Shown here piece by piece: positions 17,530 through 31,802 of a stretch of 64,000 nt of DNA. This DNA comes from Methanocella arvoryzae MRE50 (lineage in GTDB: Archaea; Halobacteriota; Methanocellia; Methanocellales; Methanocellaceae): positions 2,542,001-2,606,000 of the forward strand of contig NC_009464.1 in assembly GCF_000063445.1 (NCBI RefSeq), written 5' to 3'. Both the position numbers and the translations under genes were made by a program. Numbering within the stretch: the first letter of the stretch is position 1; the number at the start of each line of letters is the position of its first letter. The notes under the pieces are model-generated. The model worked only from the letters and a program-made list of their open reading frames with translations. It was not told the origin of the DNA and did not search any database.

Positions 17530-19059
17530 TTAGGCGCATAATCCTAGTGGTTTCAGGAGTTCTTTGTGTTTTTTCGTCAATTCGGTGGTCACCTGGGTGC
17601 CGTCTTCAAGTTCTATTTTCTTGATCTTTTCCAGTTCGAACAGCAATGAGTCGATAGTGTATTTTTCGTGGAGGCCGGTGTCTTTCATCATACGGAGCAG
17701 TCTCATTTTCAGGATGAGGCTCAGGAAATTTACGAACAGGAGTCCTTTAAGCGTGCTCTCTTTCTGTATGTTCAGGGGTCTGGCTTCCAGGTCGTTCTTA
17801 AGGATGTCGAATCCTTTTTCGACCAGGTCACGGCTTTTATATGTGCTGAGACATTCATCCCATGACAGGGTATCATTAGTGAAAAGGATGTACAATCCCA
17901 TCTTGTTTACCCGTTGAGCCACAGCATTCTTCTTAATTTTTACCTGGAACCGTCCCTCAACCAGTTTCCATGTGAAGTATTGCGTGTACCCTGCGCAGGT
18001 CTCCTGGAATACGTGGTAGGGTTTCATCCATTTTTTCAGTTCGAAGCGTTCCAGGCGTGCTTTCAGGTCATGCAGCTTCCTGTAGAACGAGTCCTCGTCG
18101 CCATGCTCTTTCCGTAGACTATAGTAACAATAGCCTTTCAAACAGTGTTCTCCCACATCCAACTCTACGCTTTTAACGAACAGGGTTTCTTTACCGTACA
18201 TGTGAAGATTGTTAGGATCATTGATACTACGATGCATCTTGGATACCAGTTGTTTGACAGTTTTCAGTTGATATGTGGCCGGAACCACGAATTTTAAAGT
18301 GCTTTTCATGAGCTCGTCGATATTGCCAGTGCTGAAGAACCCCCGGTCAAGAATGAGAGTACAATCCTGAACACCCATCGCCCTCATCTTCTTAACAGTG
18401 TTAAGAAGAGTGGACACATCTGTAATACTTCCAGGGTAGACGTCATACAGCAGAGGTATCGTCTTCTCTTTATCTATAACCAGGCCCATGTTCACTTGTC
18501 TGATACCAGTATGTTCCCGGTTATACCCATGCTCTAACAACCCGATCTGCCGGGAGTAGCTGGATATGCTGGTAATATCATAGATTAAAGAGCCCTGGGG
18601 TGCATCCCTCTCAATCAATCTCCGGGCGAATTTATCTGGTATGCTGCTCTCCCCGATCATAGACAAGAGTTCGCTGATCCGTGGCCCCGAGAGGTCCAGT
18701 CCCCATTCATTCTGGAGCCATGTAGTCTCATACCATGACGCTGCCTGGTAGAACGGCAAGGGACGGACCACCCGGTTAAAGCTCAACGCTAAAAGCATTC
18801 TGGCCTTCTCATCACTGAGGTACTCGGAGAGGATCTCTTCCAATCCCAGTTTCTTCACCGTATCGAGCAACGGTAAAAACTCACCGTAATGATACGTGTT
18901 CCTCGGAGCCTTAACCTTCTTAACCGGTTTACCATCAACGTTTTTACCAAGATAGCGTGAGCGATGCCGGATCTGTTTTTTCTCCTTATCATAGTATGGC
19001 GTGTCCTCGTACAGGTACTCCTTACCGTTGATCCGTTTAACCCTCACACTACTCTTCAT
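17530..19059 (-). CDS. IS1634-like DDE transposase
   Basis: A 509-residue full-length transposase. The catalytic aspartates are probably in LIYDITSISSYS and CTLILDRGFFS, with the acidic partner in the C-terminal YKSRDLVEKGFDILKNDLE segment, which has the Y-(2)-R-(3)-E-(6)-K signature (YKSRDLVEKGFDILK) typical of IS4-like enzymes. The frame is uninterrupted, so the element may still be active. ATG 19059 overlaps a 22-base palindrome that could limit expression. It fills almost all of the IS, leaving 19 bases to the left terminal repeat. Confidence 0.92.
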   Translation of the reverse strand: MKSSVRVKRINGKEYLYEDTPYYDKEKKQIRHRSRYLGKNVDGKPVKKVKAPRNTYHYGEFLPLLDTVKKLGLEEILSEYLSDEKARMLLALSFNRVVRPLPFYQAASWYETTWLQNEWGLDLSGPRISELLSMIGESSIPDKFARRLIERDAPQGSLIYDITSISSYSRQIGLLEHGYNREHTGIRQVNMGLVIDKEKTIPLLYDVYPGSITDVSTLLNTVKKMRAMGVQDCTLILDRGFFSTGNIDELMKSTLKFVVPATYQLKTVKQLVSKMHRSINDPNNLHMYGKETLFVKSVELDVGEHCLKGYCYYSLRKEHGDEDSFYRKLHDLKARLERFELKKWMKPYHVFQETCAGYTQYFTWKLVEGRFQVKIKKNAVAQRVNKMGLYILFTNDTLSWDECLSTYKSRDLVEKGFDILKNDLEARPLNIQKESTLKGLLFVNFLSLILKMRLLRMMKDTGLHEKYTIDSLLFELEKIKKIELEDGTQVTTELTKKHKELLKPLGLCA

Positions 19060-19324: not shown

Positions 19325-19457
19325 ACCGCCAAGACCGCCAGGGTGCCAAGCTCGCCAAGAGATATTTTTCATGGAACGCCAAGATTTTTTGCTATTCTTG
19401 GTGATCCTGATCGATAAAGCCCTTGGCGAGCTTGGCTTCTTGGCGAGCTTGGCGGCC
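19325..19457. repeat. inverted repeat built from GCCAAGCTCGCCAAG units
   Basis: The left arm carries CCGCCAAGACCGCC and GCCAAGCTCGCCAAGAG. The right arm carries two CTTGGCGAGCTTGGC-type units in reverse orientation. The arms can fold on each other. It resembles the dispersed low-complexity repeats often seen beside insertion sequences. Confidence 0.55.
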
Positions 19458-19516
19458 TTATAACTATAGTCGATATAACACATTTTTCATAAGACTATAG
19501 TAGAGAAACTGGTGTT

Positions 19517-19777
19517 AGCGGTCGACGGAGGTTTTTCGGGCTTGTCCTGCCCGTCAGGGCAGGATGCTGAGGCGGCGGGGCAATGGACACCTGCCGAAAG
19601 GCGGCTACGCGACCGAAGGGTCGAGCGCTTGATGATCGCTTAGCGCTTGCGAAGGAGGTTCGACTGGCGCTGCCGAAGGCGCTGCCAGGTCGGACCTCCG
19701 AGGGTGCGAGCGCGGCCCCGACGGCGTAGCACCCGAAAAACCGTAGTAGGGCGCCGTCAGGCGACCGTCGACCCGCT
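19517..19777. ncRNA. 261-base self-complementary GC-rich element (candidate structured RNA or MITE)
   Basis: The ends pair: AGCG plus GTCGACGG (19521-19528) with CCGTCGAC (19765-19772) plus a bulged GCT, then GGTTTTTCGGG (19530-19540) with CCCGAAAAACC (19732-19742). Internal helices include TCCTGCCC-GTCA-GGGCAGGA, CGACC/GGTCG, GCTACGC/GCGTAGC and GGAGGT..ACCTCC. A CGCC-GTCA-GGCG hairpin sits near the 3' end. The GC content contrasts with the AT-rich flanks. I do not recognise it as RNase P or SRP RNA. It may be a non-coding RNA or a non-autonomous transposable element; orientation is unknown. Confidence 0.4.
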
Positions 19778-19886
19778 ATGGTTTATTATTATGCTGTTTA
19801 TTGGTTTTATTGTAAGAAGCCGTCAGGCGACCGTCGATCTGTATAAATATTATCTCCATTCAAAGCCCATTCTATATTTAGCGTAC

Positions 19887-19914
19887 GGGGGAACTTTTTG
19901 TAAAAAGTTCCCCC
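19887..19914. terminator. perfect 13-bp hairpin
   Basis: GGGGGAACTTTTT (19887-19899) pairs fully with AAAAAGTTCCCCC (19902-19914) around GT. No gene ends nearby, so it may be a repeat-associated hairpin rather than a true terminator. Confidence 0.5.
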
Positions 19915-19976: not shown

Positions 19977-20002
19977 GGAAAACCTTTTAAAAAAGGTTTT
20001 CC
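19977..20002. repeat. perfect 12-bp hairpin GGAAAACCTTTT, repeated near 31879
   Basis: GGAAAACCTTTT and AAAAGGTTTTCC flank AA. A close variant occurs at about 31879-31904 beside the ISL3 element. It lies 25 bases downstream of the 3' end of the leftward tRNA-Gly and might also terminate its transcript. Confidence 0.55.
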
Positions 20003-20026
20003 GACAGCCTTTCTAAAACTATTCTA

Positions 20027-20098
20027 TGCGCCGGTCGGGAATTGAACCCGAGTCTATAGCTTGGCAAGCTACAGTGATAACCACTACACTACCGGCGC
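20027..20098 (-). tRNA. tRNA-Gly(GCC), copy 1
   Basis: The minus strand folds as a cloverleaf. The acceptor stem is GCGCCGG/CCGGCGC with discriminator A, the anticodon loop is TTGCCAA (anticodon GCC), and the T-loop is GGTTCAATTCC. CCA is not encoded. It is base-for-base identical to copy 2, which lies 62 bases away. Confidence 0.95.
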
Positions 20099-20160
20099 AT
20101 TGCGGTATAACGTTTTTTAAGGCACAAAGGCCATTTTTCTAAAATCTAATTTTTTGGTGG

Positions 20161-20232
20161 TGCGCCGGTCGGGAATTGAACCCGAGTCTATAGCTTGGCA
20201 AGCTACAGTGATAACCACTACACTACCGGCGC
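20161..20232 (-). tRNA. tRNA-Gly(GCC), copy 2
   Basis: Identical in sequence to copy 1, with anticodon GCC, acceptor stem GCGCCGG/CCGGCGC and no encoded CCA. The two genes are in tandem on the same strand and may share a transcript. The spacer sequences differ, so the duplication is limited to the tRNA. Confidence 0.95.
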
Positions 20233-30478: not shown

Positions 30479-31802
30479 GGTTCTTCTCCCTGTTTGGGAT
30501 CGGGGTTAGAGGCCGCATATTTTTATTATTTTTAGCATGAAGTATTCGATGTCCCGGAAACCGTATGCTCTACGTTTGATGAGCCCGATCTTATTGTTGA
30601 ACCCCTCGCTGGCGGCATTCGTCACTCCGTGTTTGAAGTAGTTGTGGATGCCGTACAGGTAATTGTTAATGGTCTTCACCACTTTGTCGTATTCTTGTAT
30701 GCCGGACTCCTGAACATTGGCCTTCCAGGTTTCCAATCGTCGTATGGCGACATCGTAGCATTTTTCGTCCAGGATGCTGAGGAGTTGCTCTTTTAGCACA
30801 TATGCACTGTACAGGGTCTGATTCTTCTCCAGGAGACTGTTGAGGGTTTCTCGTCGGTCAGGTGGCACATTCTCGTTTCTCAGGAGGATCAGGAAACGTT
30901 TTTTCTTGAACTCCTTCTGCTCATCCTTACCAGCATTCCTGAACTCGTGTCGGCGTATCGAATCCAACGCTTCGTTCACCTTTTTAGCGACATGGAACTT
31001 GTCGAAGACGATGTCCGCCCTCGTGTACTCTTTCACACTAGCGATAAAGGGATCCCACATATCCATAACTGCCACCTTGATCAACTGACATTTCTCAGGT
31101 CCAAGCTCCTGGAAGAAGGCGTTCAGAGTCTCCTTCTTACGGTCCAGGCCAACCCAGAGGACATAACCATGGTCCACGTCACGGACGACCGTGAGATATT
31201 TATGCCCTTTCTGATAAGCGATCTCATCAACACCAATCCTGACAGGATGCACCTCGGACAAACCCTTCAGGGCTGACCGAATAGATTCTTTATCGATGTT
31301 CTTAACCGTCTTCCAGTCCAACCCTACAAAGCTCGCCGCTTCTTTCACACTCATATGATCACAGAGACGGCCCACATACGCTTCATACGCCCTTGTACAA
31401 TTACTGTAATCCCTTACGAAACCCACATCCTCATACCCACGGTACCCACATTTACAATGCAATTTGTACTCCTCAAAGTACAGGTAGCATTCGAACCCCG
31501 AGAAGTCCAGGTGACGGACAAGCCGGCCATACGAGCCTTCAAAACGTTTCACCACACGGTTACAGCAAGGACACCGGACCTTATGCTTCGATCGTCCGAG
31601 CTGGATGACCACCATGCCAACCAGCATGGTCATCACGCTCAGACCAACAATCTTAAAGCCTGGAAAATTATACACGGTACTGAATACCATCGAGTATTTG
31701 CATCGTTTACTCATGATTGTTTGCCAAAACTAAAAGAGCAAACGATGCCTTACTACTTACCGATCAGCCAACAGGACTCAATCCCAACCTTGGAGAAGAG
31801 CC
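30479..31802 (-). mobile_element. ISL3-family insertion sequence, 1324 bp
   Basis: The terminal inverted repeats start GGTTCTTCTCC on the left and GGCTCTTCTCC on the right (minus strand), continuing imperfectly through TTGGGAT. The element carries one intact transposase and is flanked by the 8-bp duplication CTTATTAC. Intact ends, gene and duplication suggest a recently mobile copy. Confidence 0.92.
30506..31714 (-). CDS. ISL3-family transposase
   Basis: A 402-residue transposase of the DDE_Tnp_ISL3 type. The N-terminal zinc finger includes RCPCCNRVVKRFEG and HCKCGYRG; a helix-turn-helix-like region follows (MSVKEAASFVGLDWKTVKNI). The catalytic acidic residues are expected in RIGVDEIAYQKG, VAVMDMWDPF with FDKFHVAK, and NAASEGFNNKIGLIKR. 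The frame is complete. It is transcribed toward tRNA-Ser(GCT). Confidence 0.94.
   Translation of the reverse strand: MSKRCKYSMVFSTVYNFPGFKIVGLSVMTMLVGMVVIQLGRSKHKVRCPCCNRVVKRFEGSYGRLVRHLDFSGFECYLYFEEYKLHCKCGYRGYEDVGFVRDYSNCTRAYEAYVGRLCDHMSVKEAASFVGLDWKTVKNIDKESIRSALKGLSEVHPVRIGVDEIAYQKGHKYLTVVRDVDHGYVLWVGLDRKKETLNAFFQELGPEKCQLIKVAVMDMWDPFIASVKEYTRADIVFDKFHVAKKVNEALDSIRRHEFRNAGKDEQKEFKKKRFLILLRNENVPPDRRETLNSLLEKNQTLYSAYVLKEQLLSILDEKCYDVAIRRLETWKANVQESGIQEYDKVVKTINNYLYGIHNYFKHGVTNAASEGFNNKIGLIKRRAYGFRDIEYFMLKIIKICGL

Follow-up and report, generated by a model that had tools for sequence, protein, structure and literature searches.

The window analysed here, a 64-kb stretch of the genome of Methanocella arvoryzae MRE50, contains a GC-rich, self-complementary sequence positioned between an insertion-sequence transposase gene and two tRNA genes. 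What is this sequence, and does it belong among structured RNAs or among mobile elements? The initial annotation had suggested that it could be either a miniature transposon or a structured RNA of a new type. The genome of the window is 3,179,916 bp long and is designated G000, and the three other Methanocellia genomes that enter the comparison are designated G001–G003.

The element in the window and its surroundings

The self-complementary element, first annotated at 19517–19777, was recovered as a 259-nt copy, E01, at positions 19518–19776 of the plus strand (match R1, G000:C1:2561518–2561776). Its description as GC-rich is borne out by a local G+C content of 64%, against 38–46% in the sequence windows immediately upstream. 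The minimum free energy of the E01 RNA is -154.8 kcal/mol, compared to a mean of -118.3 kcal/mol for dinucleotide shuffles (z -7.4), and none of 200 shuffles equalled it. The RNA fold of the minus strand has a z of -5.3.

The consensus fold consists of the closing stem P1 and helices P2–P8, with coordinates given for the plus strand of E01. The 5' arm of P1, GCGGTCGACGG (19518–19528), pairs with the 3' arm, CCGTCGACCCGC (19765–19776), which contains one bulged C, forms the 3' terminus of the element, and reappears downstream in many copies. Both end stems of the initial annotation are present: GTCGACGG (19521–19528) pairs with CCGTCGAC (19765–19772) within P1, and GGTTTTTCGGG (19530–19540) pairs with CCCGAAAAACC (19732–19742) to form P2, where double changes affect 6 of the 11 pairs (helices 2 and 3). 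The two hairpins with GTCA loops were also found. They are P3 (approximately 19544–19565, CCC-GTCA-GGG), a module that differs among copies, and P8 (19752–19763, helix 14, CGCC-GTCA-GGCG). The 5' arm of P4 (19566–19581) pairs with 19715–19730, and an inner pair of this helix (column 105/410 of the copy alignment) occurs as A-U, G-C, and C-G. The P5 region (19582–19642) lies between the conserved motifs CAATGG and GCTTA, and is broken in E01 and in copy E02 by a REP-like insert that includes 19609–19631. The 5' arm of P6, GCGCTTGCG (19643–19651), pairs with 19705–19713. This helix is paired in 98.6% of the alignment cells, and its column 208/374 is G-C in 29 copies and C-G in 11. P7 (19654–19699, helices 11–13) is a long variable hairpin, in place of which other copies carry unrelated stems. 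The copy alignment further contains the conserved sequence GAGGGTGCGAGC in the internal loop between P6 and P7 (19700–19711), and, between P2 and P8, the conserved junction GTAGTAG / GAGTAG (19743–19749).

A 24-mer of the REP-like sequence (19601–19624, within GCGACCGAAGGGTCGAGCGCTTG; insert region 19601–19631) is found at six other sites in G000 at 92%. At locus L035 (G001:C141), a REP-like hairpin pair encloses about 100 bp, forming a long inverted repeat.

The repetition of a motif from the 3' end, noted initially, extends over 19 nt: GCCGTCAGGCGACCGTCGA occurs at 19753–19771 and, offset by 66 bases, at 19819–19837, and is absent from the rest of the 64-kb window. The linker that separates the 3' end from this second copy (19777–19818, plus strand) aligns with the tail of E02 (83% over 54 nt). 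The second copy is the counterpart of tandem arrays in G002, which are described below.

A tRNA-Gly(gcc) gene (20026–20099, minus strand) is positioned tail-to-tail with E01, and another tRNA-Gly(gcc) gene is located at 20158–20232 (minus strand). The transposase gene next to E01 is of the DDE_Tnp_1 type (17530–19059). A distinct long inverted repeat at about 19325–19458 (CCGCCAAGACCGCC / CTTGGCGAGCTTGGC) has a homologous copy near locus L102. MicroRNA-type matches obtained with Rfam at relaxed thresholds were rejected, as they were located on this separate inverted repeat or were far below threshold. Perfect palindromes at 19887–19914 (GGGGGAACTTTTT) and 19977–20002 (GGAAAACCTTTT) are possibly terminators or another repeat, and the stretch holding both has relatives that lie next to tRNA genes in G000, G002, and G003.

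Copies of the element and conservation of the fold

A covariance model was built from 20 aligned copies (16 from G000, one from G002, and three from G003), with its structure determined by a vote over the folds of individual copies. The model identified the copies elsewhere for which the initial annotation had proposed such a search: 42 full-length copies in four genomes, with 18 in G000 (and one fragment), one in G001, 15 in G002, and eight in G003. Under stricter filters, 290 of 294 genomes of the phylum had no match, and the positive ones were G000–G003 only. A search of 60 genomes taken as relatives gave matches in the window's own and the three other family genomes and none in the remaining 56. 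A blastn search of G000 returned 46 matches at E <=10; many of these divide single copies into fragments, and others are weak or due to chance. No match to the element was found in a plasmid search, and a strict exact pattern had none in the genome-wide and viral contig scans, from which records close to this genome may be missing; a 5'-end pattern allowing two mismatches was uninformative, with counts of 97/105 versus 81/106 in controls. Among the genomes searched so far, the family is confined to Methanocellales. At the gathering threshold, Rfam contains no family for the element; the matches that pass are tRNAs and, in another part of L033, a single ribosomal leader, and those to the element at relaxed thresholds score far lower than the thresholds of their families. 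The element was not found in a surface-level search of the open-licence literature on repeats and RNAs of Methanocella and Methanocellales and on archaeal MITEs. Two copies have unusual forms: the one at L113 (3081–3632) contains an interruption of some 300 bp that is unrelated in sequence, and at L100 a full copy is followed by a 5'-truncated second one.

The helices covary strongly, and this and the copies elsewhere run counter to two of the three refuting outcomes named in the initial annotation. In an alignment of 43 rows, which comprise the 42 full copies and one fragment, standard pairs occupy 90.8% of the cells, compared to only 37–42% in controls with slid partners. Double changes affect 51 of the 82 pairs and amount to 421 cells, versus 129.4 +/- 9.5 in 500 shuffles, counts that lean towards the fold because the rows were aligned to that structure, and the shuffles ignore relatedness. 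Unconstrained folds of 41 copies contain P1 in 34, P2 in 38, P4a in 30, P4b in 37, P5 in 32, P6 in 37, P7 in 38, and P8 in 35; P3 is the weakest helix and was recovered in 17. The individual folds have mean z of -5.4 for the plus strand and -4.6 for the minus strand (25 shuffles per copy). Entire stem modules are swapped among copies, and the junction letters CAATGG, GCTTA, GAGGGTGC, and GAGTAG are common to all three genera. Conservation is about equal in paired and unpaired columns, in which the commonest letter accounts for a mean of 80.6% and 78.4%, respectively. The fold is preserved by compensatory change while the letters vary.

The 43 rows contain 229 G·U cells versus 45 A·C cells. The plus strand has a lower minimum free energy than the minus strand in all 41 copies scored, and a lower z in 30 of them. 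The excess of G·U and the better folds of the plus strand indicate selection on this strand as a single strand, and the fold is almost certainly strand-specific. The family is a real, previously uncatalogued repeat family with such a fold.

The selected strand is probably RNA rather than single-stranded DNA. The preference for RNA comes from wobble pairs that persist within helices (the interior P6 pair in column 214/369 is U-A in 22 copies and U·G in 19) and from the A-rich composition of the plus-strand tail in G002 and G003. The hairpin loops of the plus strand count against the RNA reading. C(GAA)G, C(GUA)G, and C(AUCA)G predominate among them, GNRA loops are rare, and there are no UUCG loops among those listed, a repertoire that is unusual for a stable RNA. 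C(GNA)G loops are especially stable in DNA. A promoter search of the copies identified no TATA-like motif at a constant upstream distance.

Placement, tails, and possible spread of the copies

The copies are located mainly between the 3' ends of genes: with a crude gene caller, 32 of the 42 copies are faced by their nearest downstream gene. According to ARAGORN, with introns included, the nearest downstream feature is a tail-to-tail tRNA gene in 10 of the 15 copies in G002, 5 of the 8 in G003, and 2 of the 18 in G000. One further copy in G003 has a codirectional tRNA gene, one in G000 has a tRNA gene on its 5' side, and the single copy in G001 has none adjacent. Rfam tRNAs are positioned within 500 bp of 9/15 copies in G002 (binomial P 1.7e-16), 5/8 in G003 (1.9e-9), and 2/18 in G000 (0.009). 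The copies are preferentially located behind the 3' ends of tRNA genes in a tail-to-tail arrangement, mainly in G002 and G003. Such placement, together with the facing downstream genes, is what would be expected of a bidirectional terminator or insulator between convergent genes that was multiplied because it is useful there. Nevertheless, this function is very improbable: it does not need eight conserved helices and conserved junction letters, and archaeal termination relies on T-rich tracts, whereas the tail is A-rich on the plus strand in G002 and G003. Sixteen of the 18 copies in G000 lie within 0.998–1.990 Mb, one third of the chromosome, which also contains the stronger orc1/cdc6 match at 1.792 Mb. 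The orientation of the G000 copies relative to the replichore appeared mixed by eye.

Downstream of the element, its last 13–20 bases occur again, either once or in a tandem array whose linkers are A-rich. A single extra 3' end follows at least 6 of the 18 copies in G000, including that in the window, and at least one exact extra 3' end follows 8 of the 15 copies in G002. At L078 of G002, a 28-nt unit made up of linker and 3' end is repeated at least nine times, and L086 contains 7.7 copies of a 39-nt unit at 100% match. The unit length in G002 is also 39 nt in L088, 45 nt in L085, and 48 nt in L077, L080, and L083. We infer that the tail arrays formed by slippage or recombination on an initial duplicate.

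In the tree of copies, those of G002 are all on one side of a branch, as are those of G003, and the copies of G000 and G001 are placed together. The genome label changes 3 times on the tree, versus 19.3 in shuffles. Since the copies cluster by genome, they were multiplied or homogenised within each lineage, and amplification by movement is the likelier of the two. The flanks of copies from different genera match at three tRNA regions: tRNA-Gly (the window copy and L099), tRNA-Asp (L080 and L097), and tRNA-Met (L085, L092, and L101). The copies at these regions fail to group in the tree, which fits either repeated insertion at the same sites or old loci homogenised within genomes. The three positional matches could be old, vertically kept loci with homogenised sequence.

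One alternative is a family of host non-coding RNA genes whose RNA serves the cell, with gene conversion keeping old loci alike within each genome. The presence of the family in all four Methanocellia genomes, the strong constraint on fold and loops, and the three tRNA regions at which copies of different genera match in position speak for such genes. However, the copy number ranges from 1 to 18, the sets of occupied tRNA genes mostly differ among genomes, and there are an interrupted copy at L113 and a truncated one beside L100. The positional matches are ungrouped in the tree, although gene conversion would give the same result. We regard the host-gene reading as doubtful.

The tRNA-Ser(gct) locus, which is syntenic on both sides, contains the element in G002 (L089) and none in the window; the window site holds an ISL3-type transposase gene (30506–31714) beside the tRNA gene, and is not a clean empty site. 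In G000, L104 and L108 contain divergent A-B pairs of copies with identities of 87.6% in A, 78.4% in the spacer, and 82.9% in B, whereas their flanks are 56–58% identical, a background level given the 56% of one shuffled flank. L103 also contains an A-B pair, with a shorter spacer. The alignment of these loci suggests that A-B pairs were duplicated as a unit at the DNA level.

A second repeat of unrelated sequence is present in G003 (L094 3191–3420; L098, L099), positioned 5'-to-5' against three of the eight family copies. Its 3' end is followed by tandem units of about 24 nt of its own 3' terminus (L094, L098). It has five matches in G003 and none in G000–G002.

Enzymes that could have moved the element were sought in the family genomes. 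The reverse transcriptase domain RVT_1 was found in none of the four, and the control search was positive in 3 of 14 reference genomes; the reverse-transcriptase route was rejected on account of the absence from G000–G003. The Y1 transposase is absent from G000 and G003 and has one match each in G001 and G002, which weakens the Y1 mobilisation route. No target-site duplication was seen by eye in the flanks of 43 matches, although old insertions could have lost it. Of the 16 exact 3' ends in G000, 14 belong to known copies or to the additional 3' ends of these. No larger or autonomous element sharing this 3' end was found in G000, and the family is not an obvious internal-deletion derivative of such a transposon in that genome.

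A non-autonomous DNA element moved as a folded single strand in the Y1/HUH manner, its fold being a DNA hairpin array and any transcript incidental, would agree with several of these results: the mainly C(GNA)G loops, the z of -8.0 obtained when the plus strand of E01 is folded as DNA, the missing target duplication, and the pairs duplicated as units. The strand asymmetry fits a single DNA strand too. The lack of Y1 in G000 and G003, with their 18 and 8 copies, and the frequent U·G at the P6 pair, which suits RNA better, make such an element unlikely.

Each half of the initial proposal has gained some support, and neither is proven. The structured RNA is supported by the compensatory changes, the predominance of G·U over A·C, the better folding of the plus strand in 41/41 copies, and the lack of an Rfam family. 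The transposon is supported by the dispersed copies that cluster by genome, the syntenic difference at tRNA-Ser, and the paired units with unrelated flanks. A classical DDE-type miniature inverted-repeat transposon with an incidental internal fold would account for the inverted ends formed by the P1 arms, the dispersal, and the DDE_Tnp_1 gene next to E01. This form of transposon is scarcely credible, since no target duplication was seen, a search of G000 found no full-length element that shares the 3' end, compensatory changes occur in the interior, and conservation reaches the internal helices and loops as well as the ends.

Interpretation and comparison with known systems

The family may be a Methanocellales-specific amplifying repeat that encodes a putative structured RNA, a reading drawn from sequence comparison in which we place about equal belief and doubt. 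The single copy in G001, one of the four family genomes, counts against an amplifying element. The plus strand would be transcribed, perhaps by read-through from the upstream gene, given that the promoter search revealed none shared by the copies. The RNA would close on itself via P1 and expose the conserved junctions CAAUGG, GCUUA, GAGGGUGC, and GAGUAG to a binding protein, and its tail would consist of the linker and repeats of the P1 3' strand. The family may spread with DNA-mobilising machinery borrowed from the host or from another element; it counts against the reading as a whole that neither a reverse transcriptase in the four genomes nor, in G000, an autonomous partner with the same 3' end was found. 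Insertion would occur into AT-rich sequence behind terminators, either because it does no harm there or because these sites are targeted. The extra 3' ends may have been left by adjacent insertions and then multiplied by slippage.

More tentatively, the element might represent a novel type of selfish element in archaea, namely a compact and structured RNA that spreads although its host has no reverse transcriptase, inserts behind the terminators of tRNA and other genes, singly or as divergent pairs, and builds arrays of its own 3' end. The second repeat of G003, with the same architecture, would make this selfish strategy one used more than once. To our knowledge, few structured RNA families beyond the universal ones have been described in archaea. 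The present family is large, multicopy, and restricted to one methanogen order as far as searched, which makes its function amenable to tests in cultured strains. A selfish element would pose the problem of how a folded repeat that codes for RNA can spread when it has no enzyme of its own, and an element of use to the host would be a multicopy RNA missing from the catalogues. For annotation, a covariance model is readily available from the 42 copies.

The family resembles MITEs in being short and non-coding, with inverted ends and many dispersed intergenic copies. It differs from them in the lack of an observed target duplication or parent transposon, the strand-specific covariation of its interior, and its 3' tandem arrays. 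Non-autonomous elements derived from IS200/IS605 include PATEs and REP/BIME. The family shares with them a folded single strand, the lack of target duplication, and the form of short intergenic repeats. However, its fold has eight helices and is closed by its own ends, and Y1 is absent from two of the four genomes, including the most copy-rich one. The RNA-like body, the repetitive A-rich 3' tail, and one 5'-truncated copy are reminiscent of SINE-like retroelements, as is the preference for tRNA neighbourhoods, which some eukaryotic retroelements also exhibit. The four family genomes, in contrast, lack RVT_1, and pairs of copies duplicate as units. Compared to the large structured non-coding RNAs GOLLD, ROOL, OLE, and HEARO, the family falls below the Rfam threshold, has no linked gene seen, and occurs as many short copies per genome, but it has in common with them a complex conserved fold that is found by covariation.
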